Part shown: piece by piece, positions 21,796 to 60,833 of the stretch
How positions within the stretch are numbered: the stretch's first letter is position 1
How the letters are laid out: each line of letters starts with the position of its first letter
Source: Mycolicibacterium confluentis
Lineage (GTDB): Bacteria > Actinomycetota > Actinomycetes > Mycobacteriales > Mycobacteriaceae
Direction of reading: 5' to 3'
NCBI RefSeq assembly: GCF_010729895.1
Contig: NZ_AP022612.1
Coordinates: 4,092,001 to 4,156,000, forward strand
Length of the DNA stretch: 64,000 nucleotides
Translations under genes and position numbers: made by a program
The notes under the pieces: model-generated
The model's input: the letters and a program-made list of their open reading frames with translations, nothing else
Told to the model about the DNA's origin: nothing
The model's database searches: none

Positions 21796-21796
21796 C

Positions 21797-34810: not shown

Positions 34811-35328
34811 GCACCGCAGCCGGGGGCGACGCCGACGCCGAGGTGTACCGCGCGCCGTTGCGGTCCCGGCGCGACGACATCGATCCCGGCCTCACTCAGG
34901 CTCGGGCACTCGCCGAAGGGGTGTGTGGATTCGGCGGCGCACTGGACCCCGCGCCCGCCGATCTGGACACCGCCCTGCTCCTGGCCGCCGAGCAGTACGA
35001 CCCCAGGGTGAGTGCGCGCATCGAACGGTTCGCCGGCATCGCGCCGGGGGCGCTGGTGTGGACGCGCGACGCCGACGGCCTGTACCGGCTGGGACGCCTA
35101 GACGGGCCGTGGCGCTACGACTCCTCGGCGGAGGCACAGACCGTGGACCTGGTGCACGTGCGCGACTGCACGTGGCGCGCGACGCCGTTCATCGAGCGCG
35201 ACATCCCCGCGGCCGTGGTCGCCACATTCGCCCGCGGCGGCCGCAACTTCCAGCGAATCCACGATGACGCCGTCGGGCGGGAGTCTCAGCGCCTCTGGCA
35301 GACCCCTCAGTCGTCCTTCGGCGGGTAG
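34807..35328 (+). CDS. Conserved hypothetical protein coupled to menJ
   Basis: A 173-residue soluble protein that I recognise only as a conserved actinobacterial hypothetical. Notable segments are DDIDPGLTQARALAEGVCGF, GALVWTRDADGLYRLGRLDGPWRYD and FARGGRNFQRIHDDAVGRESQRLW. The second looks like a small beta-barrel, the last a conserved C-terminal signature. The GTG start overlaps the menJ stop, so expression is tied to menJ. The 3' end overlaps the convergent LEH-like gene by 22 bases. Confidence 0.66.
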   Translation: MSTAAGGDADAEVYRAPLRSRRDDIDPGLTQARALAEGVCGFGGALDPAPADLDTALLLAAEQYDPRVSARIERFAGIAPGALVWTRDADGLYRLGRLDGPWRYDSSAEAQTVDLVHVRDCTWRATPFIERDIPAAVVATFARGGRNFQRIHDDAVGRESQRLWQTPQSSFGG

Positions 35329-35690
35329 TAGTACTCGCGCCAGGCGCTGATCTTCTCGCCTTGGACCTCATACGCGCCCATGACCGGCCAGCTCTTCTGT
35401 TTGCCGTCCACGATCCAGTGGTCGACGCGCTCCATCAGCACGACGTTGCCGTCGACGGCGAGATACCGGACCTCGAGGTCAACGCACTTCCCCCCGGCGA
35501 AGAACGCCTTCATCATCTCGTGGATGGCTTCGCGCCCAGACAGTTTCGGCCAATCAGGACCGATGTCAAAGGTGGCATCCTCGGCGAAGTGGCTGATGAC
35601 CTCGTCGACATCGTTGCGGCCCCATGCGGCGATCTCGGCACGCACGACCTGTTCGGCCGTCGTCGTTGTCCCGTCGGTTTGTGGTGACAC
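35307..35690 (-). CDS. Limonene-1,2-epoxide hydrolase/SnoaL-like protein
   Basis: A 127-residue NTF2-like cone-fold protein. The segments IAAWGRNDVDEVISHFAEDATFDIGPDWPKLSGREAIHEMM and VDHWIVDGKQKSWPVMGAYEV align in style with LEH-type proteins, where Asp and Arg near these positions activate water. A hydrolase or cyclase-like role on an epoxide or ketone is possible. The start is a GTG. It lies 59 bases downstream of the P450 gene, probably in the same catabolic operon. Confidence 0.78.
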   Translation of the reverse strand: MSPQTDGTTTTAEQVVRAEIAAWGRNDVDEVISHFAEDATFDIGPDWPKLSGREAIHEMMKAFFAGGKCVDLEVRYLAVDGNVVLMERVDHWIVDGKQKSWPVMGAYEVQGEKISAWREYYYPPKDD

Positions 35691-35749
35691 TGTGTGTTGA
35701 CTCCTTTGGTCAGTCGAACGTTCGGACGAAGATTCGCCCGGGTATCTGG

Positions 35750-36958
35750 TTACGGCACCAGCAGAGGCAGCCGCTCCCAGCCCCGCACGGTCGAGGTGGG
35801 AGACAGACTGGCGGCCTCGAGGTCAACCTCCCATTCCGGGAAGCGCGTCAGCATCTCCTCGAGCGCAATTCGGCCCTCGAGTCGTGTCAGCGCCGCGCCC
35901 AGACAGAAGTGCGCGCCGACCCCGAAGGTCAGGGGCGAGGAAACCCTGCGGTGGATGTCGAAGCGGTCGGGATCGCCGTAGACACGATCGTCCCGGTTGG
36001 CCGCGCCTGCGACGAACAGCATCGCGCTGCCCGCCGGCACGACCTGGCCGTGGAACTCCGCGTCGACCGCGACGTACCGCCCAATGTGCGGGGCGGGCGT
36101 CTCGTACCGCAGGATCTCCTCGACGGCGTTCGGGATCAAGGAGAAGTCCGCAACGAGTTCGCGACGCTGGTCGGGGTGTTCGGCCAACACCTTGGCCGTC
36201 CATCCGATCAGCCGCGTGGTGGTCTCGTTGCCTGCTCCTGCGACGACCTGGACGTAGGCGAGGATCTCGTCGCGGGTCAGGCGCCGCTGCGTGCCCGTCT
36301 CGTCCACGAACTCCAGATGCAGCAACTCGCTCATGATGTCATCGGACGGGTTGTCCACCCGCCAGTCGAGGTACTCGGCGAACACGCCACCCCGAACCAG
36401 GGTGTCCTGCTTGAACTTCATGGCTTTGCCGGGCGCCACCCGCAGGTTCGCATCGCTGCGGTCGCGGATCTGCTCTTGATCCTGCTCCGGGATGCCGAGC
36501 AACATGCCGATGACGCGCATCGGCATCTGCGCGGCGAATTCGGCAATCAGGTCGAACCGCTTGGAGCCGACCAGCGGGTCCAAGCAGGCCGCGGAGAACG
36601 CTCGGATCTTCGGCTCCAACGACGCCACCGTCTTGGGCGTGAACATCTTCGACACCAGCTTGCGGTGGATCGGGTGCGTCGGCGCATCCTCGTAGATGAC
36701 CAACCCGGGCGGCATCTCAATGCCCGACTTGATCAGCTCGAGGATGTTGCCGCGGCTGGACTTGAACGTGTCACGGTCCGCCAAGCCCTTTGCGACGTCC
36801 TCGTGTCGGCTGAGCGCGTAGAAGTCGTGCCGCTCGTTGTAATACAACGGTGCCTCGTCGCGCAGCCGCCGGAACGTCGGGTACGGATCCCGGTTGATGT
36901 CCAGGTCATACGGGTCGTAGTACACCTCACTGGCGGGCACCACCTGCTGGGTCGACAC
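35750..36958 (-). CDS. Cytochrome P450, copy 1 of the island
   Basis: A 402-residue bacterial P450. The haem-thiolate loop is FGVGAHFCLGAALTR with the Cys ligand, the ExxR motif is EEILR, and the I-helix oxygen-activation segment is GAGNETTTR. It would hydroxylate a hydrophobic substrate using ferredoxin partners, not encoded here. The GTG at 36958 has GGAGG about seven bases upstream. An ATG at 37003, overlapping the SDR stop, would add 15 residues. It is clearly paralogous to the P450 at 46747. Confidence 0.93.
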   Translation of the reverse strand: MSTQQVVPASEVYYDPYDLDINRDPYPTFRRLRDEAPLYYNERHDFYALSRHEDVAKGLADRDTFKSSRGNILELIKSGIEMPPGLVIYEDAPTHPIHRKLVSKMFTPKTVASLEPKIRAFSAACLDPLVGSKRFDLIAEFAAQMPMRVIGMLLGIPEQDQEQIRDRSDANLRVAPGKAMKFKQDTLVRGGVFAEYLDWRVDNPSDDIMSELLHLEFVDETGTQRRLTRDEILAYVQVVAGAGNETTTRLIGWTAKVLAEHPDQRRELVADFSLIPNAVEEILRYETPAPHIGRYVAVDAEFHGQVVPAGSAMLFVAGAANRDDRVYGDPDRFDIHRRVSSPLTFGVGAHFCLGAALTRLEGRIALEEMLTRFPEWEVDLEAASLSPTSTVRGWERLPLLVP

Positions 36959-36999
36959 TTGTCCGCCTCCTTCACTGAGTTCCACCGGGTCTGAACGGG

Positions 37000-37752
37000 T
37001 CATGCCCCCATACCGCCGTCCACCGCAATCGCCTGGCCCGTAAGGAAACCCGGCGCATCGTCACAGAGCCACACCGCGATGTCGGCGATCTCGCCCGCCT
37101 CGGCAAGCCGGCCGATCGGCGCCGCCGAGAGCAGGGTCTCGATGACCTCGGGCGACATCGACTGGCGGAACATCGGGGTGTCGACGGTGCCGGGACACAC
37201 GGCATTGATGCGTATCCCCTGGCTCGCATACTCGCGCGCGGCGACCCGGGTCAGTCCGACGACTCCGTGTTTGGCCGCCGTGTAGGCCGGCACGGTGGGC
37301 GCAGCCCGAAGCCCGGCCACCGAAGCACAATTGACGATCGCCCCGCCACCCGACTCGATGATCGCAGGGATTTGATGACGCATGCACGACCACGTCCCGG
37401 TCAGGTCGACCGCGATCACGCGGTTCCAGTTCTCCATGGTGCACTCGGCGGTCGGCTTCCCGTGTTCGCCGTCGATCCCCGCGGAATTGAACGCGGCGTC
37501 CAGCCTGCCGTACATCGCCACGGTCTGGGCAACCGCATCGGCGACCGCCGCGTCGTCGACCACGTCGCAGGGTACGAAAGTACATGTGCCCAAAGAACTC
37601 AGCTCGGCCTCAACCTTGGCGCCGGCCTCCTCGTCGACGTCGGCCAATGCCACCGCATAGCCGCGCCGCACGAACGCCTCGGCCGCGGCACGTCCGATAC
37701 CCGAGCCCGCGCCGGTGACGAAGACGACCTTCTGATGCTGCGCTATGGGCAC
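37000..37752 (-). CDS. Short-chain dehydrogenase/reductase
   Basis: A 250-residue classical SDR with TGAGSGIGRAA (about 14-24), NSAG, the catalytic Ser in VNCASVAG and YTAAK (about 158-162), and the C-terminal AIAVDGGMGA. It would interconvert an alcohol and ketone with NAD(H), a natural partner for the P450 product. It is directly upstream of the P450 gene and downstream of the amidohydrolase gene in one run of minus-strand genes. Confidence 0.9.
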   Translation of the reverse strand: MPIAQHQKVVFVTGAGSGIGRAAAEAFVRRGYAVALADVDEEAGAKVEAELSSLGTCTFVPCDVVDDAAVADAVAQTVAMYGRLDAAFNSAGIDGEHGKPTAECTMENWNRVIAVDLTGTWSCMRHQIPAIIESGGGAIVNCASVAGLRAAPTVPAYTAAKHGVVGLTRVAAREYASQGIRINAVCPGTVDTPMFRQSMSPEVIETLLSAAPIGRLAEAGEIADIAVWLCDDAPGFLTGQAIAVDGGMGA

Positions 37753-37783
37753 TGTTCCTCATTCCTGGGGGGACGCATCGCTT

Positions 37784-39088
37784 CTACCGGACCAGCACGC
37801 CGCTGAGTTCGGTGTGTCGCCTTTCGGCCGTGCGCTCCCCCAACCGGTCGATCACCAACGCCCCGTCCCGGACGACGGCCCGCAGCGCTTCGTCGGGACG
37901 TGCGAGCAACGACAGGTCCGCCACCGGGTCTCCGTCCACGATGATCAGATCCGCCAGGGCCCCCGGTTCGATCACTCCGACCCGGGCCGGCGGATCCACC
38001 AGCAGCTCACCGGCATTGGCGGTGCCCCAGCTGAGCACCTGTTCCGGGGAGAGGCCGTCGATCTGGCCGTAGTAGGCGAACTCACGACCATAGTTGCCCA
38101 CCTGATGGTCCAGCGGGTCATCGTCCATGAGGTCGCGGAACACCCCGCTGTAGTCATCGCCGATCAGGATGCGCACCCCGGCGGCCTGCGCCGCCGGCAG
38201 CATGGCGCGGACGTGTTCGTACTGCTCCCGTCGCACACCCATACTTTCGCCATAACCGAGGTCGAGCACGCTGCGAAGGAAGATCAGACTCGGCACCCAG
38301 AAGGTGCCTGCTTCGGCCATCGCGGCGATGACTTCGTCGTCCACCTCATCGCCGTGGTCGACGACATCGAGTCCGAGTTCGATGCATTCCATGATCATCG
38401 CCTTGTCGGCGACATGGGCACGGACCTTGGCGCCACGTTCGTGCGCGGTGCTGATGATCGCGGCGATCTCGGTGCGAGACATGTTGCGGATCGTGCGATT
38501 CGGCTGACCGTGACCGGCGCTGGCGAAGATCTTGATGGTCTCGGCGCCGCGGTTGATCTCCTGGCGGACCAGTGTGCGCAGGGCATCCGGGCCATCGGCG
38601 CACACGTCTGTCCCTGGCGTTTCATAGGCTTTCCACCAACGACCGCCGTTGTTCATGTCGCCTGTGGTGCCGAGATGATGCCCGCACGCGCGGATTCTCG
38701 GTCCACAGATGATGTCCTCTTCGATGGCCATCTTCAGTTGCGCATCGATGTCATTGGAGCAGGAGGCGCCCGAGAAGCCGGTGAACCCGCTCTCGAGCAG
38801 CACCCGGCAGGTGCGGACCCCGATCGCCATCAAGACGCCCGGTGGGCGTTCCTTGCCCAGCCGATCGCTGTCGGCGATGTTGAACTTGTAGAAGTCCGAA
38901 TGCAGATGACTGGTGATCAGACCAGGCATCAGCGTCATGCCGCCGGCGTCGATGACCTCAGCCGGTGGCACCGGCGACGCATCGTCGATCGCCGTGATTG
39001 TGTTCCCGTCGAGCGTGACACTGTGTCTGCCGGGCAGCAGCTTTCGGCCGTCGAAGACCTTGGCGTTGGTGATCACCAGCATGGTCAT
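37784..39088 (-). CDS. Amidohydrolase family metal-dependent hydrolase (imidazolonepropionase-like)
   Basis: A 434-residue TIM-barrel amidohydrolase. Metal ligands are visible as HLH in GLITSHLHSDF (about 61-63), a Lys in TIKIFASAGH (likely carbamylated), the His in VRAHVADKA and VVDHGDE, and an Asp in LIGDDYSG. It would hydrolyse a C-N or related bond, perhaps a cyclic amide or lactone. It sits between the crotonase and SDR genes. The substrate is unknown. Confidence 0.86.
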   Translation of the reverse strand: MTMLVITNAKVFDGRKLLPGRHSVTLDGNTITAIDDASPVPPAEVIDAGGMTLMPGLITSHLHSDFYKFNIADSDRLGKERPPGVLMAIGVRTCRVLLESGFTGFSGASCSNDIDAQLKMAIEEDIICGPRIRACGHHLGTTGDMNNGGRWWKAYETPGTDVCADGPDALRTLVRQEINRGAETIKIFASAGHGQPNRTIRNMSRTEIAAIISTAHERGAKVRAHVADKAMIMECIELGLDVVDHGDEVDDEVIAAMAEAGTFWVPSLIFLRSVLDLGYGESMGVRREQYEHVRAMLPAAQAAGVRILIGDDYSGVFRDLMDDDPLDHQVGNYGREFAYYGQIDGLSPEQVLSWGTANAGELLVDPPARVGVIEPGALADLIIVDGDPVADLSLLARPDEALRAVVRDGALVIDRLGERTAERRHTELSGVLVR

Positions 39089-39098
39089 AACCTCCGAA

Positions 39099-40085
39099 CT
39101 AGTTCGCGGCCCGACCCCGCCGGCTCAGTCGCCAGTCGGGGGGAAATTGGCTGTCGTTGTCCTTGACGGTGTCGGTCAGGTTGCCCAGCGTGTCCTCGTC
39201 CAGTTCCATGCCCGCGGTATTTGGATCGGGCATCAGTTGGTCGAGGGTGGACTCCAGCAGGCCCGCGACGATGCTGCCCATGTACTCGCCTTGGTGCTGT
39301 TTGTAGATCTCGAAGAAGGTCTTCTGCGCGAACACGGTGTCGGTGGGTCGGCTGCGCGAACAGGCCAGCGCATACTTGTCGGTCATCGCCTCGAGGTCCT
39401 CGAAGGGCACCACCGCGTTGACGAAGTTGCAGTCGTACATCTCCTTGGCGGTGAACGGCCGGCCGGTGAACACCATCTCCATGAACTTGCGCGCGCCCAT
39501 CGTGTTGCACCACTGCCACTGTCGCGCGGCGAAACCCGCGTAACGCCATGCGGCGTGCCCGAACAGTGAGTCTTCGGAGGCGACGACGATGTCGGCGTCG
39601 GCGGCCTGGTAGAAGTGCCACCCGTAGCAGTAGCCACGAACCTCGAGAATGCTGATCTTCTTGAAGTCCTGCAGGCTGCGCATTCCGGCGCTGGGGTCGG
39701 TGTAGAACTGCACGGTCGACGCGCGCCGGCGGTAGGTGCCCACCGGCGGGTAGGTCACGTCGGCGTCGTCGGGAACTCGCACCGCCTGATTCATGCTGCC
39801 CTCACCGCGGCCCGCCATGGTGTCGAGCAGTTCGGCGAGGTCGGCACCACTGCCCAGGTTGGGGCCATTGGCCCGGATGACGAGAACCTTCACGTCGTCG
39901 TCGATGCTGGCGTTGTGCACCAGGTCGGCGTAGCGGTGCTGGGCCCCGATCGTCATCGCATTGAGCTCGTTGGCACGGTCGAGCGTGATCGTCGCGATCT
40001 TGGTCTTGGGGTCCTTCTCGTAGAGCACGATCTGCTCCGGTGCAGGGCGGTCGTCGCGTTCCGTGCGCTGTGCCTGTTCGGTCAT
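39099..40085 (-). CDS. Enoyl-CoA hydratase/isomerase family protein (extended)
   Basis: A 328-residue crotonase, longer than the usual 260. The oxyanion segments are ANGPNLGSGADLAEL and RGYCYGWHFYQAADADIV, separated by an insertion of about 50 residues containing TYRRRASTVQFYTDP. The middle part has the usual FGHAAWRYAG. The ATG giving MTEQAQ has AAGGAG upstream; an extra in-frame 13 residues are possible. It probably acts on a CoA ester made by the neighbouring ligase. Confidence 0.86.
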   Translation of the reverse strand: MTEQAQRTERDDRPAPEQIVLYEKDPKTKIATITLDRANELNAMTIGAQHRYADLVHNASIDDDVKVLVIRANGPNLGSGADLAELLDTMAGRGEGSMNQAVRVPDDADVTYPPVGTYRRRASTVQFYTDPSAGMRSLQDFKKISILEVRGYCYGWHFYQAADADIVVASEDSLFGHAAWRYAGFAARQWQWCNTMGARKFMEMVFTGRPFTAKEMYDCNFVNAVVPFEDLEAMTDKYALACSRSRPTDTVFAQKTFFEIYKQHQGEYMGSIVAGLLESTLDQLMPDPNTAGMELDEDTLGNLTDTVKDNDSQFPPDWRLSRRGRAAN

Positions 40086-40110
40086 CTGCCAAGCTCCTTG
40101 TGGGTGTTGG

Positions 40111-41772
40111 TCAACCTGCGCCAATGGCTGTGTCCATGCAATGGGCTGTCGGTTCTGGGCTCACGTGGGCTGCGACCATCTCAGTCAGTTCGAACAGCCG
40201 CACCTTGCCGGTCGGCGTCCTGGGTATGTCGTCGTGGGTGACGAACACGATCCGGCGCGGCACCTTGAAGCTGGACAGTGTTTGGCGCAGCGCCGACCTC
40301 AGGTCGGCCTCGGACGGGGCGTGGCCGGCCGCCGGCACCACCGCCGCGGCGACGAGCTCGCCGATCTCGGCGTCCGGCAACCCCGTGACGAGCGCGAGTT
40401 CCACCTCGGGGAGCGCGTTGAGTGCCGCCTCGACCTCCAGCCGGGATACGTTGGCGGAGTTCGTCTTGATCATGTCACTGATCCGCCCGACGAAGAATGC
40501 GTAGCCGTCGGCATCGATACGCACAAGGTCCTTGGTCGGGAAGAAGCCGTCTGTGGTGAACACCTCGTCGCGGGGCACCTTGTAGAGGCCCGTCATCAAG
40601 GCGCCGCCCCGCAGGTGCAGTTCGCCGACCTCACCGGGGGCGACCTCGAGGCCGGTCTCCGGGTCGACCACCCGCCGTTCGATCCCGTTCACCGCGCGGC
40701 CGGCGGCGCCGGCCTTCGACTCCGGGAGCCGTCGCGTGACCGGCTCCGCGCTGTGCGGTGCGAAACTCTCCGACATCCCGAGCATTCGGGTCTGCAGGTG
40801 TCGCGGGATGGATTCGCCGTTCTCGTCGCGGGTCGGCCCCGTGGTGATCTTGATGTTTTCGAGGTTGCTGCCGCGGGCCTTGGCCGCCGCCTGCAGCCTT
40901 GCCAGCATGTGCCAGATGACGATGTTGGTGATCCCGTGTGCCTCGATGGTGTCGAGCACGACGTCGACGTCGGGACTGGTGGGATACACCAACGTGCTTC
41001 CGGTGCTCAAGACCTGCAGCGCGGCTGATATGCCGCCCATCCAGAAGGCCGGCAGTAAGGACAGGGTGCGATCCTCCGGTTGCACATCGAAGTAGGTCGC
41101 CAGGACCGGAGGCTGGCGGGCGACCGCCCACTGGCCGTGCACGACCGCCTTCGGAGCGGCCGTGCTGCCCGAGGTGTAGACCACGAACGCGTCGTCACCG
41201 GGCACCACCTCGTCCTCGACGGCGGCCAGCAGCGTGGTATCCGGCGCGTCGGGTCCGTCGGCGCGCACCAGGAGGTCCTCGATCGAACGCGCCCAGGGCA
41301 GACCGGCGCAGTCGTCGAGCCACACCGACCGCAGATAGGGCGCCGCGGGCAGGCGTAACGCCGCGGGGTTCGCGGAGTCCAGCCCCGGCAGGGCCGCCTC
41401 GATGTTGCGCCCGAAGTCACGGGACAGAAAGCGACGCAGACCGATCAGGATCTGCGCGTCGCTGGTACGGACGATGTGCGCCAGCTCTGTTGGCGTGGTC
41501 AGTGTGCTGATCGGGGTGACCAGCGCACCGATGCGCAGCGCGGCGTAGAACGCGGTGAGCAGCAGCGCGCTGTCCGGAGCGAGGATGGCGATCCGGGTGC
41601 CCTTTCCGGCACCGCTGGCCAGGAATGCGCGAGCCATCCTGGCGCAGCGCTGGTCCAGATCACGGTAGGTCTGCGTCTCTCCGGCATGGATGAGCGCGGC
41701 GTGGTCCGCGCGCGCGGCGACGACCTCGGCGAACAGTCTCGGGAACGTCGATGCGGGTTCGGTGCGGTTCAT
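40111..41772 (-). CDS. Acyl-CoA synthetase (AMP-forming, FadD type)
   Basis: A 553-residue adenylate-forming ligase. The P-loop is VVYTSGSTAAPKAVVHG (about 197-213). The C-terminal hinge is FFVGRISDMIKTNSANVSRLEVE, and the catalytic Lys lies in IPRTPTGKVRLFEL. It activates a carboxylic acid to its CoA ester for beta-oxidation, matching the crotonase next to it. The family member's acid substrate cannot be told from sequence. Confidence 0.9.
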   Translation of the reverse strand: MNRTEPASTFPRLFAEVVAARADHAALIHAGETQTYRDLDQRCARMARAFLASGAGKGTRIAILAPDSALLLTAFYAALRIGALVTPISTLTTPTELAHIVRTSDAQILIGLRRFLSRDFGRNIEAALPGLDSANPAALRLPAAPYLRSVWLDDCAGLPWARSIEDLLVRADGPDAPDTTLLAAVEDEVVPGDDAFVVYTSGSTAAPKAVVHGQWAVARQPPVLATYFDVQPEDRTLSLLPAFWMGGISAALQVLSTGSTLVYPTSPDVDVVLDTIEAHGITNIVIWHMLARLQAAAKARGSNLENIKITTGPTRDENGESIPRHLQTRMLGMSESFAPHSAEPVTRRLPESKAGAAGRAVNGIERRVVDPETGLEVAPGEVGELHLRGGALMTGLYKVPRDEVFTTDGFFPTKDLVRIDADGYAFFVGRISDMIKTNSANVSRLEVEAALNALPEVELALVTGLPDAEIGELVAAAVVPAAGHAPSEADLRSALRQTLSSFKVPRRIVFVTHDDIPRTPTGKVRLFELTEMVAAHVSPEPTAHCMDTAIGAG

Positions 41773-41787
41773 CGGTTCGGGTCCGGC

Positions 41788-42321
41788 TCAGAACCGGGTG
41801 ATCGGGTTGACGCCGTCCCACGCCTGTGCTGCGGCGCGCATCGCGGCGAACCCCGCCTCCCGCACCGGACTCGGTTCAAGCAACTCGACCATGAATCCGA
41901 GCGTGGGCGTGGTGTCCACCCAACACGTTCGACTGTTGCCGATGCGAGCCTCGAACGCGAGCTCTGCTCCGCCGGCGATGTAGGCGTCGCGCTCGGCCTC
42001 GTAGTCGGTACAGACCAGTGCCATGTGATGCAGGCCGGACTCTCCCCTGCCGAACACGTCCCGGAACACTCCCGGTTCGTCGTTGTCCTGGCAGACCAGT
42101 TCGACCTGCAGGTCGCCCGCATACGCGATGGCCGCGGTCACCGTCGGGAAATCGGCGGGGGCTCCGCGATGCCTGCCGTCCACGCAGTCCACGCCGTCGA
42201 ACCAGAAGAACGGTCCGACGCCGGCACTGCGCGACCAGGATTCGATGGCCTTGTTCAGGTCGGGAACCAACCAGCACACCTGCATGAAGTTCCGGTTGGG
42301 GAATGGCAGCCCATTCGTCAA
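41788..42321 (-). CDS. VOC (glyoxalase/dioxygenase) family protein
   Basis: A 177-residue vicinal-oxygen-chelate protein. Metal-ligand candidates lie in NFMQVCWLVPDLN, GLHHMALVC and LGFMVELLEPS. The first position is Gln or Cys rather than His, so metal binding may differ from glyoxalase. The start is a TTG with AAGGA upstream, just after the dioxygenase stop; a longer frame reads into that upstream gene. It probably belongs to the same minus-strand operon. Confidence 0.8.
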   Translation of the reverse strand: MTNGLPFPNRNFMQVCWLVPDLNKAIESWSRSAGVGPFFWFDGVDCVDGRHRGAPADFPTVTAAIAYAGDLQVELVCQDNDEPGVFRDVFGRGESGLHHMALVCTDYEAERDAYIAGGAELAFEARIGNSRTCWVDTTPTLGFMVELLEPSPVREAGFAAMRAAAQAWDGVNPITRF

Positions 42322-42332
42322 GGAAATGTCCT

Positions 42333-43187: not shown

Positions 43188-43252
43188 GGTGGGCAGTGAT
43201 CTCCTCGCAGACAGGGGGTTTCGCACGGCGTGCCGGTCCGGCCGGCACCCGA

Positions 43253-44662: not shown

Positions 44663-44772
44663 GACCTTCCCCCTTGAATCTGTTGCGTCACTGTGGGCCG
44701 TCGCGCCGCACAACGTGGCTGACGCTCGGGCGATCCCCTGAGGCGATGTTAGGCACGCTACCGCGCTTTTTG

Positions 44773-44783
44773 CAACAGTGTTG
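44773..44783. promoter_or_regulatory. Candidate operator in the amidohydrolase/TetR divergent region
   Basis: The short perfect inverted repeat CAACAGTGTTG lies 71 bases before the TetR start, between divergent genes. A position between two promoters is typical for a TetR operator, but the arms are only five bases. Confidence 0.33.
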
Positions 44784-44853
44784 TACTTTTGCACCGATGT
44801 GGCAAAAGCGGCCCGCAGGCAGCGAGGCAAGCCCATTGACTAGGGTTTTCGTT

Positions 44854-45498: not shown

Positions 45499-45530
45499 AA
45501 ATTCTTCGCGCGACCATGCCGGGCCGCTCG

Positions 45531-49694: not shown

Positions 49695-49976
49695 GGCCGC
49701 CACCGTAACCTACGTAGCCCCCACATACGAAGCGGAATTTGGTACAACATCCGGTGACGGGGACAAAGGCGCGATTCCTCCCAAGAATGCGCCTGAACAG
49801 GGAACCAAGGCGCTCATTCCCTCGCCAAGGGGCCGTGACAGCCACGTAACCGGTGGATGAATTGTCATTAACTTATGGCTTGCGCGGGCCCTCGTTGCTG
49901 TGACATGCTCCACACGACCGGGGGGTCGGAGCGGCTGCACCCACGGGCGCAGTGGAGCTTTTTCGGGAAGGACGTC
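49695..49976. promoter_or_regulatory. Divergent control region for the double TetR and second mce operon
   Basis: A 282-base gap with three copies of a motif AGGCGC plus ATTC: AGGCGCGATTCC (49767-49778, direct), AAGAATGCGCCT (49783-49794, inverted) and AGGCGCTCATTCCC (49808-49821, direct). TACGTA lies at 49709-49714. TAACTT (49869-49874) is a candidate -10 element for the mce operon, giving a leader of about 95 bases. GGAAGG precedes the first ATG by five bases. Confidence 0.5.
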
Positions 49977-53130: not shown

Positions 53131-54173
53131 CGATTCGTTGGCAGGCCTGGACCAAGGTCGGCGCGTTCTGCGCGGCCGGTGCCGCGAGCGCGGTGCTCGT
53201 GGTCAACACGCTGTCGGTTCCCGTGCGCGGCAGCACCTACACCTACACCGCGCAGTTCAGCAGCGTCGAGGGTCTCAGCGTCGGAAACCCGGTCACCATG
53301 AACGGCATTCGCATCGGCCGGGTCGACTCGATCCGGTTCGCGAACAACGGTCAGGGCACAGCGCGCGCCGACGTCGAACTCGAGGTCAAATCGCAGTACA
53401 CGCTGACCTCCGACGTCACCGCGGCGGTCCGCTACGGCGACATGCTGGGCGCGCGTTACATCGCGCTGGCGAATCCGGGCGGCTCGATCATGTCGGTCTC
53501 CACCGATGAGGCGCCCACCCTGCTGGCCGACGGCGGCGTGATCCCGTTGGCCCAGACCACCCCGGCGGTGGATCTGACGGCGCTGCTCAACGGGTTCAAG
53601 CCATTGTTCGACGCGCTCGAACCCGCGCAGGTGAACACCCTGACCCGCGGCTTCGTCGAGACGTTCAGCGGCCAGGCGCAGACCGTGACGGCGCTGCTGA
53701 CGCAGATCGCCACCATGACCTCGTCGATGGAGCACAACGAGCAGATCTTCACGACGCTCATCTCCAACGTCTCGTCGCTCATGCAGTCGGTGAACGTGCG
53801 CCAACCCCAACTCGAGGAGATGCTCGGCGGCCTGCAGCGGTTGACCGACACAGTGACCGGCCCCGACGGACAGTTGGAACTGCTGCTCGACCAGAGCAAC
53901 TCGGTGCTCGCGACGCTGGCCGCCACCGTGACCCAGTCGGGCGCCGCCTACGGCGAGGCCATCACGGATCTGAAGTCGATGCTGGGCGTCTGGGAGACCA
54001 CCACGCCGGAGTTCGAGGGCCTGCTGGGCAGGCTGCCGGGATTCGCGGACGCCATCAACCGGGCCAGCAGCTACGGCGGGTTCATGAGCCTGTACCTGTG
54101 CAACTTCACGATCAAGATCGCCCGGCATGAGGCCAACATCTTCGGAAGCCGACACACCGAGGGGTGCCTCTAG
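53127..54173 (+). CDS. mceB: MceB-position MCE protein, second operon
   Basis: A 348-residue MCE protein with an N-terminal helix (about 9-27) and an MCE domain including EGLSVGNPVTMNGIRIGRVDSIRF. The helical part contains NISSL-type and RQPQLEEMLGGLQRLTDTV-type heptads. The end has SLYLCNFTIK and TEGCL, a Cys pair also seen in the first operon's B protein. The gene overlaps mceA by four bases; mceC follows without a gap. Confidence 0.9.
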   Translation: MTIRWQAWTKVGAFCAAGAASAVLVVNTLSVPVRGSTYTYTAQFSSVEGLSVGNPVTMNGIRIGRVDSIRFANNGQGTARADVELEVKSQYTLTSDVTAAVRYGDMLGARYIALANPGGSIMSVSTDEAPTLLADGGVIPLAQTTPAVDLTALLNGFKPLFDALEPAQVNTLTRGFVETFSGQAQTVTALLTQIATMTSSMEHNEQIFTTLISNVSSLMQSVNVRQPQLEEMLGGLQRLTDTVTGPDGQLELLLDQSNSVLATLAATVTQSGAAYGEAITDLKSMLGVWETTTPEFEGLLGRLPGFADAINRASSYGGFMSLYLCNFTIKIARHEANIFGSRHTEGCL

Positions 54174-55229
54174 ATGATGTTCCTGGTCAAGCTCATCGAC
54201 CTGTTCGTCGGCGCGGTCATGTTCCTTCTCAAGAAGGACCGTGGCCACAACCCCACGGTCCCCTACGCGTTGGGCGCACTGGGCAGCATCGGCCTCGTGG
54301 TGCTCATGCTCATCACGATCGGTCTGCCCCGACTCACCTACCAGATGCGCACCGACGCCTTCACTGCCGAGATGGCCAACGCCAGCGGGCTGACGACGGG
54401 TGACCCCGTCTACGTCGCCGGTGTGCCCGCCGGTCGCGTCGAGAACGTCGAACTGGCCGGTGACCACGTCCGCGTCGGGTTCCGCCTGGACGACGGTCAG
54501 CCCCTGGGCAACCAGACCACCGCGACCGTCCGGTTGCGCACCGTGCTGGGCAAGCGGTTCCTCGACGTGATGCCGGCCGGCACCGTCAATCCCGAAGACG
54601 GCAACGTGATTCCGCTGGCGCGCACCACGGTGCCGTACAGCCTGGACGAGGTCGGCCGCAAGGCCGAGGACGCCGCGGTGGGTGTCGACCAGGCCATGCT
54701 CACCGAGGCCATGCGCACGGTCAACGACTCGATTCCAGCCGACAACACCGACCTGAGTGCGGCGCTGGCCGGAATCAGCAGCGCCAGTGCGGTCTTCGCG
54801 CGCAACGGCGACAAGTTCGACGAGCTGCTGCGCATCTCGCGGTCGCTGTCGGATCTGATGGTCAAGCAGAACGACGCGGTGACCGGTACCGCCGCCAGCG
54901 CGGCCCGCATCATCTCGGCGCTCACCGCCCGCCGCGACGCACTGGGGCAGATCGTCACGAATCTGCGTGCCGTGGTGCGGGAACTGGCGGCGGTGTACTC
55001 CGCCAAACAGCAGGACTTCAGCGAGGTGATCGGTCAGTTGCAGCGTGTGACAGCCACTTTGAAGGCCGGAGCAGACCGCATCGACGCGACGCTGCAGAAC
55101 ATGCCGCCGGCCCTGCGGGCCGTCACCAACTCCACCGGCAACGGCAACTGGGCCGACGTCAACTCGCCGTCGGTGATCATGCCGGACAACCTGCTGTGTG
55201 CCCTCAACGTGCAGAGGACGTGCCGATGA
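54174..55229 (+). CDS. mceC: MceC-position MCE protein, second operon
   Basis: A 351-residue MCE protein with a longer N-terminal cytosolic stretch and a membrane helix at about 35-54. The MCE domain includes GLTTGDPVYVAGVPAGRVENVEL. The C-terminus NSTGNGNWADVNSPSVIMPDNLLCALNVQRTC corresponds to NTTGTGNAADLHAPGGLLVDSWMC of the first operon's C protein, supporting the positional match. It is joined to mceD by an ATGA overlap. Confidence 0.9.
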   Translation: MMFLVKLIDLFVGAVMFLLKKDRGHNPTVPYALGALGSIGLVVLMLITIGLPRLTYQMRTDAFTAEMANASGLTTGDPVYVAGVPAGRVENVELAGDHVRVGFRLDDGQPLGNQTTATVRLRTVLGKRFLDVMPAGTVNPEDGNVIPLARTTVPYSLDEVGRKAEDAAVGVDQAMLTEAMRTVNDSIPADNTDLSAALAGISSASAVFARNGDKFDELLRISRSLSDLMVKQNDAVTGTAASAARIISALTARRDALGQIVTNLRAVVRELAAVYSAKQQDFSEVIGQLQRVTATLKAGADRIDATLQNMPPALRAVTNSTGNGNWADVNSPSVIMPDNLLCALNVQRTCR

Positions 55230-56332
55230 CCAGGCGGGCCGCAGTCTTCGCGGCGGTGCTGATCGCGTTCATCGGCGGCGCCGGGTGGTATGTGTTCGCG
55301 CGCACCGACAACGCCCGCACGCTGCACGCCGACTTCACCTACATCAACGGCATCTACGCCGGAAGCAAGGTCACGGTGCTCGGCGTGCCGATCGGACGCG
55401 TCACCGCGGTGACACCGCAGGGCACCACGGTGCGGGTGTCGATGTCGCTGCCCTCCGACGTCTCGCTGCCCGAGGACGTCAACGCCTACATCATGAGCCC
55501 GGCCCTGATCAGCGACCGCAGCGTCGACCTCGGACCGGCCTACACCGGCACAGGCCCGGCCCTTGTTGAGGGCCAGGTGATCCCGGTCGAGCGCTCGCAT
55601 GCACCGATCACGTTCGACTCCATGCTGGGCAGCCTGAGCACGCTGACCGAATCGCTGGGCCCCGACCAGGGTGACCTCGGCCAACTGCTGTCCCGGGGCG
55701 CCGACCAGTGGCGCGGTCAGGGCAAGCAGTTCAACGCCGCGGTGCGCAACCTCAGTTCGGCGACCGGCGTCCTCGGTGCCCGCGCCGAGGACATCGATGC
55801 CGTCGTCGGCAACCTGAACACCATGATGACGGCCTTCAACCAGCGTCAGGTCTCCCTCAACGACCTGGTGAACTCCCTTGGCGCGCTCGGTGACTCGTGG
55901 GCCGACCAGGACCTGGACATCACCGGCACCATGACCGACCTGCGCACCGTGCTCGACTCGGTCAGCGCCGTGGTCAACGAGCACAGCGAAGACCTCGGCG
56001 CGGTCGCCGAGAACCTCAACGCCGTCGGCGACATCCTCACCCACAGGCAACCCGAACTCGCCGAGTTCATGGACCTGGTGCCGCTGATGATGCAGAACCT
56101 GTCGAACACCATCGGCCCCGATCGCCGCGGCCGCATCCGTCTCAACGTGTCCTCGGTGCTGACGCAGTTCGCCGACGCACACAACTTCTGCGAGCGCACC
56201 CAGTGGCCGATCTGCTCGGGAATCGGCCTGGTCAACCCCATCGAGTTCCCGATCAGTCGCTCCGATCCACTGGGCATCGTCAGCGCCGTCACCGGCGTGA
56301 TCCCGCCCCCGAACCCGAACCATCCGAGGTGA
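55226..56332 (+). CDS. mceD: MceD-position MCE protein, second operon
   Basis: A 368-residue MCE protein with a membrane helix (about 5-24) and an MCE domain including IYAGSKVTVLGVPIGRVTAV. The D-specific tail segment RQPELAEFMDLVPLMMQNLSN is present, followed by FCERTQWPICSGIGLVNP with two Cys. The ATG giving MTRRAAVF overlaps the mceC stop. Six bases separate its stop from mceE, the only gap in the MCE run. Confidence 0.9.
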   Translation: MTRRAAVFAAVLIAFIGGAGWYVFARTDNARTLHADFTYINGIYAGSKVTVLGVPIGRVTAVTPQGTTVRVSMSLPSDVSLPEDVNAYIMSPALISDRSVDLGPAYTGTGPALVEGQVIPVERSHAPITFDSMLGSLSTLTESLGPDQGDLGQLLSRGADQWRGQGKQFNAAVRNLSSATGVLGARAEDIDAVVGNLNTMMTAFNQRQVSLNDLVNSLGALGDSWADQDLDITGTMTDLRTVLDSVSAVVNEHSEDLGAVAENLNAVGDILTHRQPELAEFMDLVPLMMQNLSNTIGPDRRGRIRLNVSSVLTQFADAHNFCERTQWPICSGIGLVNPIEFPISRSDPLGIVSAVTGVIPPPNPNHPR

Positions 56333-56338
56333 GCGCCC

Positions 56339-57397
56339 ATGCGTAAACCATCGTCGACCGCGGTCGCGTTGACGGCCATCGGCGCGCTGAGCGCGACCGC
56401 GTTGTGGGCCGCCTCCGACCTCGGCATCCAGGATCTTCCATTGGGCCGCAGCACCGCCGGAGAGAGCATGACGGTGACCGTGGTGCTGCCCACGGCGGAC
56501 GGCATCGCGATCGGCGCCGACGTGCGTGACGGGCAGAAGGTCGTCGGCCGGGTCAGCTCACTGCATCTCGCGACCTCGGGCGCGTCGGTCCAACTCAGCG
56601 TGCGCGCCGACAGCAATCTGCCGAGCAACACCATCGCGAGCGTGGAACTGCCCTCGGCGCTGGGCAATCCGTTCGTCCGACTGTCCGCACCGGCCCAACC
56701 GACCGCCGCGATCCTGCGTGACGGCGACGTCATCCCGCCCAGCCAGACCGAACTGGGTCCGCAGATCGAGACCGCGCTGGCGACGTTCGGGGCGTTGATG
56801 TCGCGCAGTGGTGTCGACCAGTTGACCACGATCGTCGCCGAACTCGACAAGGCGTTCGGCGGGCGTTCGGAGAAGATCCGCGGCCTGATCGACGCGATGT
56901 CGGTGCTGGCCGCCAAGACTCAGGAGCACCAGGGCGAATTCGACCAGGCCCTGACCCTGGCCGCCGACATCAGCACGCAGTTCGAACGCGAACAGCACAC
57001 TGTCGACCGCTATCTCGACGCGCTTCCCCGGGTGGTGGCGATGCTCGACATCCAGCGCGCCAAGATCGCCACGCTGTTCGCCTCGACCACCGCGCTCGCG
57101 TCGACCGCCAACGCGGTCTTCGCCCAGGCCGACACCGCGGCGTTGGTGCAGGACGCGGGCGCCGTGGTCAAGGAGTTGGGCAGCTACAACGACCGCCTCA
57201 ACGACACGCTCGCCACCATGAACAACTTCCTCGACAAGTTCGGTTCGTCGGTCAAGGGCGACTACCTGATGTTCGACGGGGCCCTGGACATTCCGGGCAC
57301 CATCGACAAACTGCTCACGGGCGGCCTGATCGTCAACGGCACCCCGATCACCGGCCAGGAGGCACTGGACGGATTCCTCTCGGGGGGCCTGCATTGA
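56339..57397 (+). CDS. mceE: MceE-position MCE protein lacking a lipobox, second operon
   Basis: A 352-residue MCE protein in the position normally held by a lipoprotein. The N-terminal hydrophobic segment is SSTAVALTAIGALSATALWA, with no cysteine, and I find no cysteine anywhere in the chain. It therefore cannot be lipidated in the usual way and must be held by a membrane helix or by its partners. The MCE domain contains ADGIAIGADVRDGQKVVGRVSS. It lacks the Pro-rich tail seen in the first operon's E protein. Confidence 0.88.
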   Translation: MRKPSSTAVALTAIGALSATALWAASDLGIQDLPLGRSTAGESMTVTVVLPTADGIAIGADVRDGQKVVGRVSSLHLATSGASVQLSVRADSNLPSNTIASVELPSALGNPFVRLSAPAQPTAAILRDGDVIPPSQTELGPQIETALATFGALMSRSGVDQLTTIVAELDKAFGGRSEKIRGLIDAMSVLAAKTQEHQGEFDQALTLAADISTQFEREQHTVDRYLDALPRVVAMLDIQRAKIATLFASTTALASTANAVFAQADTAALVQDAGAVVKELGSYNDRLNDTLATMNNFLDKFGSSVKGDYLMFDGALDIPGTIDKLLTGGLIVNGTPITGQEALDGFLSGGLH

Positions 57398-58608
57398 GAA
57401 GACTCGTCGTCGTCCAGGTCGCCATCTTCGCGGTGATCGCCGCGATCGTGGTGCCCTTCGGCATCCGATTCGTCGCGGGCTCACAGGGTTTCCGCACTCC
57501 CCTGCTGCTGAACGCCACGATGACCGACGCGTTCGGGCTCACCGCGGGCACCAGTGTGACCGTGCGCGGCGTCGAGGTCGGCACCGTCGACGACGTCCGA
57601 CTGGGTCCCGACGGCACCGCCCGGATTCGGCTGGCCGTCGACCCGGACACCCGCATCCCGCGGGACGCCATCATGACCGTCGGCATGGGCACCGCGGCCG
57701 GCATCCAGAGCGTCGACCTGCTGCCGCAGTCCAATGACGGGCCGTACCTGGCGTCCGGCGACACCGTCGCCGCCCCCGCCGATCGGCAGCCCGTCCAGAT
57801 GGATCAGGTCATGGCCGAGGCGGGTCGTCTGGCCAAGAAGATCGACGCCAAGGCCGTCGGCGACGTCTCGACCGAACTGTCCGACTCGTTCAGCGGTTTG
57901 GGCCCGAGCCTGGCCGCGCTGATCGACAACGGTGCGGACATCTCGCAGCGAATCCATGCTCGTTTCGGAGAACTCGAACCGCTGATCGCCGGCACCGTCA
58001 ACCTGGTGACCACGATGGCCGGTCAGGGCAACAGCTTTGTGCGCGGCATGAACGCCAGTGCCCGGTTCACGACACAACTCGACGACAGCGGACCGGTGTT
58101 CCTCTACCTGACCGACCACGCGCCCGAGACGCTGACGTCGGTGCAGAAGGTCATGGACACCTACCGCGACACGTTCGGCGCCACGCTGGCCAACCTCGCG
58201 ACCGTCGCGCCGATCATCGGTGACCGCACCGAGTCGCTGCAGACCGGCCTGCAGGCGATCCCACAGGGGCTCTATGACCTGTCGTCGATCGTGAAGAAGG
58301 ACCGCGCGGACTTCGCGCTGATCGCCACGCAGGGTCCGGTGTGTGTGCACGACGTCGACCGGCGCGCGATCGGCGACCTCAGCCCGGTGCAGCCCAACCT
58401 GGTGCGGTACTGTCCGCCGTCGCCGGACATGCAGATGCGCGGCGCGGTCAACGCCCCGCGGCCCAACGACCTGGGCATGCAGAATTCCCAGATCCCCGGC
58501 GGCGTGATCGGCCCACCCGTGGCCCGCGACCCGATGAAGATCCCGACGCTGGCCGAGCTCGTCTACAAGTGGCGAATGATGTTGAGAGGTAACGATGTCC
58601 CGCGATGA
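57394..58608 (+). CDS. mceF: MceF-position MCE protein, second operon
   Basis: A 404-residue MCE protein. The TTG start overlaps the mceE stop. A membrane helix is at about 5-25 and the MCE domain includes GLTAGTSVTVRGVEVGTVDDVRL. The C-terminus has VCVHDVDRR, LVRYCPPSPD and MRGAVNAPRP, matching the F protein of the first operon. Its last 14 bases overlap the Mas gene. Confidence 0.9.
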   Translation: MRRLVVVQVAIFAVIAAIVVPFGIRFVAGSQGFRTPLLLNATMTDAFGLTAGTSVTVRGVEVGTVDDVRLGPDGTARIRLAVDPDTRIPRDAIMTVGMGTAAGIQSVDLLPQSNDGPYLASGDTVAAPADRQPVQMDQVMAEAGRLAKKIDAKAVGDVSTELSDSFSGLGPSLAALIDNGADISQRIHARFGELEPLIAGTVNLVTTMAGQGNSFVRGMNASARFTTQLDDSGPVFLYLTDHAPETLTSVQKVMDTYRDTFGATLANLATVAPIIGDRTESLQTGLQAIPQGLYDLSSIVKKDRADFALIATQGPVCVHDVDRRAIGDLSPVQPNLVRYCPPSPDMQMRGAVNAPRPNDLGMQNSQIPGGVIGPPVARDPMKIPTLAELVYKWRMMLRGNDVPR

Positions 58609-59167
58609 GGTAGACACCCTGGACGAAACGGTCGACGTGGATGCCACCGATTCGGCCGAGACCGGGGCCGCCGACGAGGGCTCGCGACCCGCACGCGCCT
58701 GGCCGCGCCGCGTGCTCGCCGGTACGATCGTGGCCGCGTTCGTCGCCCTGGCCGGCGCACTGGGCTACACGCTGTATCAGCAGAGCGAACTGCAGCGCCT
58801 GCAGAGCGAGGCCACCGCGACCACACGCGACTACCTCACCGCGATGGCGTCGTTCGACTATCAGAACCTGGCCGCCAACAAGGGCACCATCACACAGCGT
58901 TCCACACCCGAGTTCGCCAAGAAGTACGACGAGATGGTGGCGGCCCTGCGCGACATCGTCGTCACCAGCAAGGGCGTGGCGGCCGCGACCGCCGAACACG
59001 TCGCGGTCGAGCAGTTCGACGGCGAGCGCGCCACCGTGGTCGGGTTCGTTGATCAACAGGTCACGAATGTGACTGCCCCGCAGGGGAACAAGCAGCGCTA
59101 CCGAATGGTGGTGTCGCTGGTCCGCGATGGCGACCGGTGGCTCGTCGACGACGTCAAGACCCTCTGA
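58595..59167 (+). CDS. Mce-associated (Mas) membrane protein, second operon
   Basis: A 190-residue Mas protein: an acidic N-terminus rich in Asp, Glu and Thr (about 1-30), basic residues, one membrane helix (about 41-62) and an extracytoplasmic domain of about 125 residues ending RDGDRWLVDDVKTL. The acidic tail is about half the length of that in the first operon. The ATG lies within the end of mceF. It probably assists Mce complex assembly. Confidence 0.83.
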   Translation: MSRDEVDTLDETVDVDATDSAETGAADEGSRPARAWPRRVLAGTIVAAFVALAGALGYTLYQQSELQRLQSEATATTRDYLTAMASFDYQNLAANKGTITQRSTPEFAKKYDEMVAALRDIVVTSKGVAAATAEHVAVEQFDGERATVVGFVDQQVTNVTAPQGNKQRYRMVVSLVRDGDRWLVDDVKTL

Positions 59168-59188
59168 TCCACCTCGAAAGGACACGCG

Positions 59189-60094
59189 ATGCCAGCTCAG
59201 TACGCCACCGCCGATGCAGCGCCCCGACTGACCTGCGAGCAGACGCGGATCCAGATCACCCAGCGCACCCCGCGCTGGGAACGCAAGAAGGAACTCGACC
59301 TCACCGACGCGCTCGACTTCTGGTCCGCGGCAGGCTCGGCGGCCAACGTCGCGATGCAGATGAGCTGGCCCGAGGTCGGCTACGGCGTCGCGGAGAGCCG
59401 CGTGGAGTCGGGGTCACTGATGCACCACCCGTGGAAGCGCCTGCGCACGACGGCCCAGTACCTGGCGGTCGCGATCCTGGGCACTCAGGAGGAGCGCGAC
59501 GCCTACCGCGAGGCGGTCAATGTCGCCCATCGGCAGGTGCGCTCCACCGAGGACAGCCCGGTGAAGTACAACGCGTTCAACCGTGAGCTCCAATTGTGGG
59601 TTGCGGCCTGCCTGTTCATCTTCTACGAGGACACCCACCAGCTTCTGCACGGCGCGATGACCGAGGAGCAGGCCGAGACCTTCTACCAGAGCGCCATCAC
59701 GATCGGCACCACGCTGCAGGTGCTCGAAGACCAATGGCCGGCCACCCGCAAGGATTTCGACGCTTACTGGAACACCGCGTGCGAACGCATCGAGATGGAC
59801 GACTTCGTCCGCAACTACATCCTGCACCTGCTCGACCTGAAGATGATCAACGTGATCCCGCGCCTGATCCTCGCGCCGCTGTTGAAGTTCCTCACCAACG
59901 GCTTTCTGGCACCGGTGTTCCGCGAGCAGATGGGCCTGGAGTGGAGCGATGAGGACCGGCGCCGGTTCGAGCATCTGTTCCTGTTCGTCTCGTTCGTCAA
60001 CCGATTCATCCCGCGGTTCATCCGCACGTACAACTACACCGTGCTGATGAAGGACCTGCGTCGCCGCATCAAGCGCAACAAGAGCATCCTCTGA
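59189..60094 (+). CDS. Oxygenase MpaB family (DUF2236) protein 1
   Basis: A 301-residue DUF2236/MpaB-type protein. Relatives (latex-clearing protein, MpaB) are haem-b oxygenases that cleave isoprenoid chains. Visible motifs are RLRTTAQYL (RxxxT type), a His 27 residues later in NVAHRQVRS that is a candidate axial ligand, and KYNAFNRELQLWVAA. The usual WVHA is here WVAA, missing a His. C-terminal basic residues follow a hydrophobic stretch (about 220-245). It is placed 21 bases after the Mas gene, as part of the mce operon. Confidence 0.78.
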   Translation: MPAQYATADAAPRLTCEQTRIQITQRTPRWERKKELDLTDALDFWSAAGSAANVAMQMSWPEVGYGVAESRVESGSLMHHPWKRLRTTAQYLAVAILGTQEERDAYREAVNVAHRQVRSTEDSPVKYNAFNRELQLWVAACLFIFYEDTHQLLHGAMTEEQAETFYQSAITIGTTLQVLEDQWPATRKDFDAYWNTACERIEMDDFVRNYILHLLDLKMINVIPRLILAPLLKFLTNGFLAPVFREQMGLEWSDEDRRRFEHLFLFVSFVNRFIPRFIRTYNYTVLMKDLRRRIKRNKSIL

Positions 60095-60098
60095 ACGC

Positions 60099-60833
60099 GT
60101 GACCGGCGAACTGCTGCGGCGTCACCTCGGTGACCGCCGTTTCCTGTTGATGCTCCCGCGCGCGGTGTGCCTGCAACTGCTGCACCCGACCATCGCGCGC
60201 GGCATCCTGGAGCACGCCTTGATGCGCGAGCGAATCTGGTTGCACAAGAAGCGAACTGTGCCCGCCTTGATCCGCATCGCCTACACCGATCGGGAGATGC
60301 GGCGGTTCATCCAGTTCGCGCACGAACACGTCAAGGGCACCGACGAGCAGGGTCGGCCCTATCACGCGCTCAATCCCGACGTGTTCCACTTCCAGCACGC
60401 GACGTTCGTCGAGACGCTGGTGACGATGGTCAACACGTTCATCGGCCCTTTGGACGCCGACGAACATGAACGGTTGTACCAGGACTGCTGCGAGTGGTAC
60501 CGCCGCTACGGGATCTCCGACCGCCCGATGCCGGGAAGCTGGGCCGACTTCACCGAGTGGTTCTCCCATGAGTGCAACACGGTGCTGTCGGCCGGTCCGC
60601 ACTTCGAACCGTTCCGCGACCAGATCTTCGAACCGACCGACTGGTGGCCACGTGTGGTGCCACGCGGCGCGATTCGCGCCATGCAGCACCCTTGGGCCGT
60701 CGAGCTCACGGGGGTCACACCGTCTGCGTCAGATCGCCTGTCGCTGCGGATGTTCGCCGGCGTCTGCCGGGCCGGCGCGGGAGTTGCGGCGCTGCGCGCG
60801 CCAGCGGCGCTGAGGGAGCCGGTCAGTTCTTGA
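60099..60833 (+). CDS. Oxygenase MpaB family (DUF2236) protein 2
   Basis: A 244-residue DUF2236 protein. It has LLMLPRAVCLQLLHPTIARGILEHAL, KKRTVPAL, the candidate axial His in FAHEHVKGTDEQGRPYHALNPD, and FHFQHATFVETL with the second His kept, unlike its partner. The start is a GTG 4 bases after the first gene's stop. The pair may work as two subunits or on successive steps. The stop lies inside a short tandem repeat. Confidence 0.78.
   Translation: MTGELLRRHLGDRRFLLMLPRAVCLQLLHPTIARGILEHALMRERIWLHKKRTVPALIRIAYTDREMRRFIQFAHEHVKGTDEQGRPYHALNPDVFHFQHATFVETLVTMVNTFIGPLDADEHERLYQDCCEWYRRYGISDRPMPGSWADFTEWFSHECNTVLSAGPHFEPFRDQIFEPTDWWPRVVPRGAIRAMQHPWAVELTGVTPSASDRLSLRMFAGVCRAGAGVAALRAPAALREPVSS

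Follow-up and report, generated by a model that had tools for sequence, protein, structure and literature searches.

A putative mobile catabolic cassette beside a resident mce operon between menJ and menG of Mycolicibacterium confluentis

The cargo of several mce operons is not known, and the usual clue to it is provided by the gene neighbours. A 64,000-nucleotide stretch of the Mycolicibacterium confluentis genome (NZ_AP022612.1, positions 4,092,001 to 4,156,000; hereafter the window) contains an mce operon and a set of apparently catabolic genes between menJ and menG, which the initial annotation had read as one linked, co-regulated island for the import and degradation of a hydrophobic compound. 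Comparison with other genomes makes it probable that the locus is a composite, in which a resident mce importer locus has received a mobile 13-gene catabolic cassette acting on a bulky acid via its CoA ester. The gene set is genuine and was misread as one system; gene neighbours mislead here as a clue to the mce cargo, and the interesting part is the cassette itself.

Gene content of the menJ–menG interval

The genome comprises 5.88 Mb in one contig. The interval is bounded on the left by menJ, encoding menaquinone reductase (33596-34810, plus strand, start approximate; NCBIfam MkRedMenJ NF045655, 805.7 bits with a cut-off of 700), and on the right by menG, encoding a UbiE/MenG-type methyltransferase (60853-61539, minus strand; PF01209, 3e-61). 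We take the M. tuberculosis equivalents of these two genes to be only a short distance apart. A tRNA-Arg called by ARAGORN at 34140-34228 falls within the menJ reading frame and is probably spurious. Directly 3' of menJ lies a small open reading frame (ORF), hypA (34807-35328, plus strand), which is 64-68% identical to its counterparts in two relatives, G634 and G652 (genomes are designated by our handles where they must be told apart).

The cassette occupies about 13.1 kb (35307-48401) between hypA and the regulator of the mce operon. Its main operon is a tight run of genes on the minus strand, from 44662 down to 35307. The first gene encodes AH2, a putative diiron oxygenase of the Amidohydro_2 fold (43253-44662; PF04909), followed by PhyH, a putative Fe(II)/2-oxoglutarate dioxygenase (42333-43187; PF05721, 3.2e-15), the glyoxalase-fold protein VOC1 (41788-42291, start uncertain; PF13669), the AMP-binding acyl-CoA ligase FadD (40111-41772; PF00501, 2.1e-55), the atypical crotonase ECH (39099-40085; PF00378, 3e-17) and AH1, an Amidohydro_1 hydrolase of the prolidase/ochratoxinase-like superfamily (37784-39088; PF01979; PDB 3feq, E 3.9e-35). 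The run is completed by the short-chain dehydrogenase SDR1 (37000-37752; PF13561, 4.9e-67), the cytochrome P450a (35750-37003; PF00067), which among solved chains is closest to bacterial P450s, including 6gmf and CYP130, and a SnoaL or limonene-epoxide-hydrolase-like protein (35307-35690; PF07858, 5.8e-16, and PF12680). Divergently from AH2 is encoded the cassette regulator TetR (44854-45498, plus strand, start uncertain; PF00440, 8.1e-15), and then follow SDR2 (45531-46457, minus strand; PF00106, 1e-44), P450b (46741-47931, plus strand; PF00067; CYP130, E 6.1e-62) and VOC2 (47985-48401, plus strand; PF18029, 6.4e-20), the last cassette gene ahead of the mce unit.

The mce unit begins with a Mce3R-like regulator (48459-49703, minus strand), a single polypeptide with two TetR_N stretches, which is divergent from the operon yrbEA, yrbEB, mceA-F (49875-58608, plus strand). 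Two yrbE permeases (MlaE matched twice) are followed by six mce genes (MlaD matched at six places in series), while whole-protein matches to mce families in the interval were confined to mceA and mceF. Downstream lie a Mam-like gene, which we name by its position after mceF, and MpaB1 and MpaB2 (58595-60833, plus strand; MPAB_Lcp_cat PF09995, 1.8e-62 and 2.2e-47, respectively); a PDB search with MpaB1 gave no match. The genome contains 73 MlaD matches, namely 12 series of six and one single, so that an mce operon per se is no rarity here. A second complete yrbE/mce operon is located in the window at 20926-30025, to the left of htpX-grcC1-menJ, and mce genes related to it also adjoin htpX in G012, G166, G634 and G652. 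The gene inventory given in the initial annotation is correct, except that the interval includes two SDR genes and not three, the third (61635-62459) being located past menG.

Distribution and inheritance of the mce operon and the cassette

In a sample of 198 genomes of the genus, 13, including that of the window, contain a match to the mceA gene of this operon (E <= 1e-120). Stretches around mceA were fetched in 11 of the 12 other genomes, and in all ten whose stretch spans both menJ and menG the operon lies between them; G193, whose contig ends before menG, was left out of this count. The twelfth genome, G166, is likewise not among the ten, since its contig breaks within mceA; menJ, the regulator, yrbE and the beginning of mceA follow one another there. 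MpaB1 follows the mce operon in each of the 11 fetched loci and MpaB2 in eight of them. The double-TetR regulator adjoins mce in only some relatives (G012, G045, G166, G634 and G652), and the cassette is not present in the 11 other fetched loci, nor at the mce locus of G166, G634 or G652.

Protein identities were compared pairwise in seven genomes (21 pairs) for four genes of the cassette and four of the mce operon, with the window proteins as probes and HtpX together with MenJ representing the host. Identity of the mce proteins (75-95%) tracks that of the hosts (78-96%). These comparisons show an importer locus, menJ-[regulator, yrbE/mce, Mam, MpaB]-menG, whose gene order and divergence bespeak vertical inheritance. 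The genes that regularly accompany this mce operon are Mam and MpaB rather than the P450 and PhyH genes.

The cassette has a different distribution. Of 396 genus genomes searched, 14, the window's included, have AH2 orthologues, and PhyH orthologues were found in 7 of 198, after an eighth genome, G039, had been dropped because its match (33% identity) was not taken as an orthologue. Two genomes with AH2 identities of 46-47% and no PhyH match (G297 and G308) were not counted as cassettes, and L001-L005 were, from their matching coordinates, equated with the genomes G762, G696, G128, G672 and G765, each being counted once. Altogether 20 copies in 18 genomes were examined, 16 of them in the 14 genus genomes and four in a second family of the class, found by searching 394 genomes. 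The core order AH2-PhyH-VOC1-FadD-ECH-AH1-SDR1 is kept in 18 of the 20 copies. Second copies in G128:C11 and G672:C16, located ~60 kb from the first, consist of AH2-PhyH-VOC1-AH1 only, with FadD, the crotonase and SDR1 not in their places. The four outside copies, which we infer to belong to Frankiaceae-like actinomycetes, each have a Rieske oxygenase and an additional FadD beside them, and three of them also a pair of acyl-CoA dehydrogenases. One copy resides on the M. branderi plasmid pJCM12687, where it adjoins AveC-like, epoxide hydrolase and acyl-CoA dehydrogenase genes. The seven-gene core is common to mycobacteria and Frankiaceae-like actinomycetes, and appears to have spread horizontally, once onto a plasmid. 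Nothing evidently dealing with such a cassette was found in a literature search whose coverage excluded most subscription journals.

Linkage of the cassette to this mce locus was observed only in the genome of the window. Neither menJ, menG nor this mce operon occurs in the flanks (~10 to 40 kb) of the cassette in 11 of the 13 other cassette genomes, the surroundings in the remaining two, G662 and G765, not being judgeable on contigs of 19.6 and 13.0 kb. The two loci were seen apart in G012, G020, G124, G128, G634 and G652, and on different contigs in M. setense, and this mceA was not matched at 1e-60 in six of the 14 cassette genomes (G093, G117, G662, G696, G762 and G765). In Mycobacterium sp. 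OTB74 the cassette is located ~1.5 kb from the end of a different mce operon, with 42-69% identity to the window's first mce operon. Apart from OTB74, the flanks fetched around the genus copies, among which the contigs of G662 and G765 are short, showed no mce operon, and no mce genes were found in the fetched stretches around the four copies of the second family, two of which have a periplasmic-binding-protein gene of the ABC type nearby.

The near relative G166 (MenJ 95.5%, regulator 95.4% and YrbEA 99.3% identical) has an empty site, with about 20 bp separating the ends of the menJ and regulator coding matches. AH2 has a single match in G166 at 1e-20, a paralogue of 30% identity, and the PhyH matches in the 198 genomes do not include this relative. 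In G634 menJ, hypA and the regulator are contiguous and the cassette of this genome is located 0.8 Mb away; G652 likewise has hypA between menJ and the regulator with no cassette at that place. On these grounds hypA was rejected as a part of the insert and is taken as ancestral at the locus, so that the inserted block most simply begins after hypA. Since G166 lacks the cassette, the insertion most simply postdates the split from this relative, and on grounds of parsimony the occupied site would be the later state. The G+C content of the stretch between menJ and the regulator is 65.2%, compared with 68.4% and 67.2% on its sides.

For the cassette proteins, 20 of the 21 pairs have identities of 86-92%, and the one exception, with 98.8%, comes from close hosts. 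Identity stays at 86-90% even where the hosts are only 78-80% alike. In the pair G000-G020, for example, the cassette is 89.1% identical, the host proteins 79.4% and the mce proteins 75.7%, while in G012-G634 the corresponding values are 87.7, 94.5 and 93.1%. Such a flat identity, whatever the distance of the hosts, points to horizontal transfer, indicating a cassette that is mobile and at odds with host phylogeny. The empty site and the unlinked copies elsewhere reject the possibility of one co-inherited island, and the insertion beside mce in this genome is most plausibly a later, incidental event.

Regulators and regulatory elements

The intergenic regions between TetR and AH2 contain an element with the core CAACaccGTTG (44766-44795, minus strand, in the window), which can be made out by eye in 12 of the 13 copies aligned. 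The exception is G124, in which the two genes are 1.4 kb apart and only the last part of the region was aligned. A position weight matrix built from 11 relatives, with the window left out, scores 48.8 bits at this place and only 4.9 bits at the next non-overlapping place in the window, while nowhere in the mce promoter region does the score exceed -15.3 bits. The bare 15-base pattern, allowing three mismatches, gives one match with 0.82 expected, which is not beyond chance; the weight of the element lies in its conservation and position rather than in the rarity of the pattern.

Another element, CATTAACTTAnnnCTTGCGC (49866-49885, plus strand), is located in the mce promoter region and is present in five of six aligned regions, that of the window included. 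It is unique in the window with up to three mismatches. The first ATG of the yrbEA ORF (49875) falls inside this conserved promoter-like element, so that the true start of yrbEA is probably downstream of 49885. Both elements are putative operators. Since each is found in the window only at its own promoter, there is no sequence sign of one shared regulator: control of the mce operon by the cassette TetR was rejected because the operator of the latter is not seen at the mce promoter, and the converse, co-regulation via the mce promoter element, because this element is unique in the window.

The regulator of the mce unit is distantly related to Mce3R (Rv1963c), its best solved match (9b7y, E 8.7e-40), and paralogues of 51-56% identity exist in the genus. 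As in the mce3 operon, which has a double TetR acting as a repressor (PMC11667970), it is encoded divergently next to yrbE/mce. Differences from the Mce3R system include a second double-TetR gene in the genome of the window, located away from mce. The genes neighbouring the window regulator presumably also differ from the Mce3R regulon. Orthologues of mce3R are reported to occur exclusively in some of the pathogenic mycobacteria (PMC11667970). The second double-TetR gene (G000:C1:4317275-4318477, 51-52% identity) adjoins a paralogue of MpaB1 (61%), the stretch fetched around it showing no mce match, and double TetR and MpaB may possibly form a recurrent pairing.

Enzymes of the cassette and the putative pathway

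The best solved relative of AH2 is PtmU3 (PDB 6omp, E 3.6e-41), an amidohydrolase-fold diiron enzyme that hydroxylates CoA-ligated substrates during the biosynthesis of diterpenoids (PMC7782822). In an alignment of the window protein with the best 120 of 1361 matches, the putative iron ligands D-x-H, H, E and D-x-x-H-x-(E/D), corresponding to those given for AibH2 and PtmU3 (PMC7782822), are each present in 112-120 of the 121 sequences, the remainder being mostly gaps. AH2 shares these residues with PtmU3, and differs from it in being encoded in a catabolic-looking operon and in having about 60 more residues ahead of the aligned part. The Aib monooxygenase AibH1H2 is also an amidohydrolase-fold diiron oxygenase of an actinobacterial catabolic pathway; it uses an amino-acid substrate, has two subunits and is encoded alongside ferredoxin and reductase genes (PMC7782822), none of which was matched in the cassette. 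As a control, an Amidohydro_2 paralogue neighbouring the M. branderi copy was searched, and it also best-matches PtmU3 (E 1.6e-32). The match to PtmU3 therefore supports the enzyme class and not the substrate, and a firm diterpenoid assignment was rejected. The terpenoid substrate that the initial annotation thought possible would fit the CoA-bound substrates of PtmU3 in diterpenoid biosynthesis, though the control paralogue shares this best match.

The residues H-x-D, H and R of PhyH, which we take to be the facial triad and the 2-oxoglutarate-binding arginine of PhyH dioxygenases, are present in all 121 aligned sequences (the window protein with the best 120 of 545 matches). Among solved proteins it weakly matches enzymes of natural-product pathways, including SnoN, EvdO2 and SnoK. 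The fold matches of its structural model are mostly natural-product and other 2-oxoglutarate dioxygenases. In ECH, as judged by eye from 16 sequences aligned without a canonical hydratase, the motifs GW(H/Q)FYQA and FGHAA(W/F)RY occupy what we assume to be the sites of the two catalytic glutamates of enoyl-CoA hydratases, and neither glutamate is found there. FadD, the SDRs and the P450s belong to broad families, and among the NCBIfam matches listed for them none reaches its curated cut-off.

The mce4 region of M. tuberculosis and R. jostii, which is responsible for cholesterol uptake and catabolism, resembles the window in combining an mce operon with nearby CoA-dependent catabolic genes and P450s. 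A sterol pathway of this kind would fit P450s, FadD and SDRs adjoining an mce operon, and the Mce3R regulon of M. tuberculosis is cholesterol-induced (PMC11667970). However, no KstD or Hsa type family was found among the Pfam matches of the interval proteins, in line with the lack of steroid-ring genes noted in the initial annotation, and the cassette is present in only 14 of the 396 genus genomes. Unlike in the mce4 region, the mce and catabolic genes of the window are unlinked in relatives, differently inherited and provided with separate regulatory elements. Cholesterol or sterol catabolism is thus extremely unlikely.

A role of the cassette in biosynthesis, with its enzymes tailoring a natural product of the terpenoid or polyketide type, would be consistent with the biosynthetic function of PtmU3, with the weak similarity of PhyH, in sequence and in the fold of its low-confidence model, to natural-product enzymes, and with the AveC-like spirocyclase encoded near two cassette copies. 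The family of the latter is named from natural-product biosynthesis. Against this, neither the interval nor the 29 neighbour proteins scanned (9 of G652 and 20 of G518) gave a match to a terpene cyclase or polyketide synthase family, while FadD, the crotonase, VOC and the flanking acyl-CoA dehydrogenases fit catabolism, which makes a biosynthetic cassette very improbable.

The cassette would rather perform the oxygenolytic breakdown of a bulky, perhaps terpenoid, carboxylic acid as a CoA ester. In the proposed scheme, TetR would repress the cassette at the CAACaccGTTG operator and probably be released by a CoA ester of the pathway. FadD would convert the bulky, probably cyclic, carboxylic acid to its CoA thioester, which AH2 and PhyH may then hydroxylate near the carboxyl end. 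The P450s and SDRs could oxidise the ring skeleton, to be opened or cleaved by the atypical crotonase and AH1, and general beta-oxidation would finish the degradation. The mce operon is probably a lipid importer in its own right. The core is a testable candidate for undescribed acyl-CoA chemistry, with its putative diiron oxygenase, PhyH and a crotonase lacking the usual glutamates.

Several observations weigh against a composite locus with a cassette of this function. The Pfam matches of the block include no integrase or transposase gene, for which, as for target repeats, no systematic search was made. The structural model of PhyH is of low confidence (predicted local distance difference test score, pLDDT, 65), the substrate class is weakened by the control paralogue that shares PtmU3 as its best match, and the AveC-like spirocyclase points towards natural products. 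The mce operon is present in five of the seven genomes with a PhyH orthologue, compared with 13 of 198 overall (one-sided Fisher p 1.0e-5, ignoring kinship and assuming that the PhyH and mceA searches drew the same 198 genomes, as shared handles suggest), and in OTB74 another mce operon stands close to the cassette. This enrichment and the OTB74 adjacency leave a functional tie possible.

Such a tie would mean that the mce operon imports the substrate of the cassette, forming with it an uptake and catabolism system whose genes are scattered elsewhere. The larger sample, with this mce operon in eight of its 14 cassette genomes, and the adjacency to mce both here and in OTB74 argue for it. On the other hand, the six cassette genomes without a match to this mceA, the eight of 13 mce genomes without the cassette, the two regulatory elements that are not shared and the stretches of the second family, which have no mce and in two cases a periplasmic-binding-protein gene instead, argue against it. 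Moreover, the enrichment ignores kinship, and the mce-positive cassette genomes compared fall into three host groups (G000; G012/G634/G652; G020/G124/G128). Import of the cassette substrate by this mce operon is consequently doubtful. The same holds for a more specific version, for which the odds are long: a new oxygenolytic pathway, in which AH2 and PhyH hydroxylate a terpenoid-like acyl-CoA that is cleaved by the glutamate-less crotonase, with the menJ-menG mce operon as its preferred, normally unlinked importer.

The composite locus, with a resident importer and an inserted cassette, remains the better account of these data. The linked and co-regulated character of the single island proposed originally is not supported: the cassette is missing at other mce loci, lies unlinked elsewhere and has a regulatory element separate from that of mce. 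The co-occurrence that the initial annotation had named as a check is found at the level of genomes, with the loci normally unlinked, and the proposed degradation of a hydrophobic compound keeps support in that the genes look catabolic and CoA-dependent.

The AH2 fold has few characterised oxygenases. On the 864-kb M. branderi plasmid NZ_AP022607.1, nine places match the amidohydrolase-fold oxygenase.

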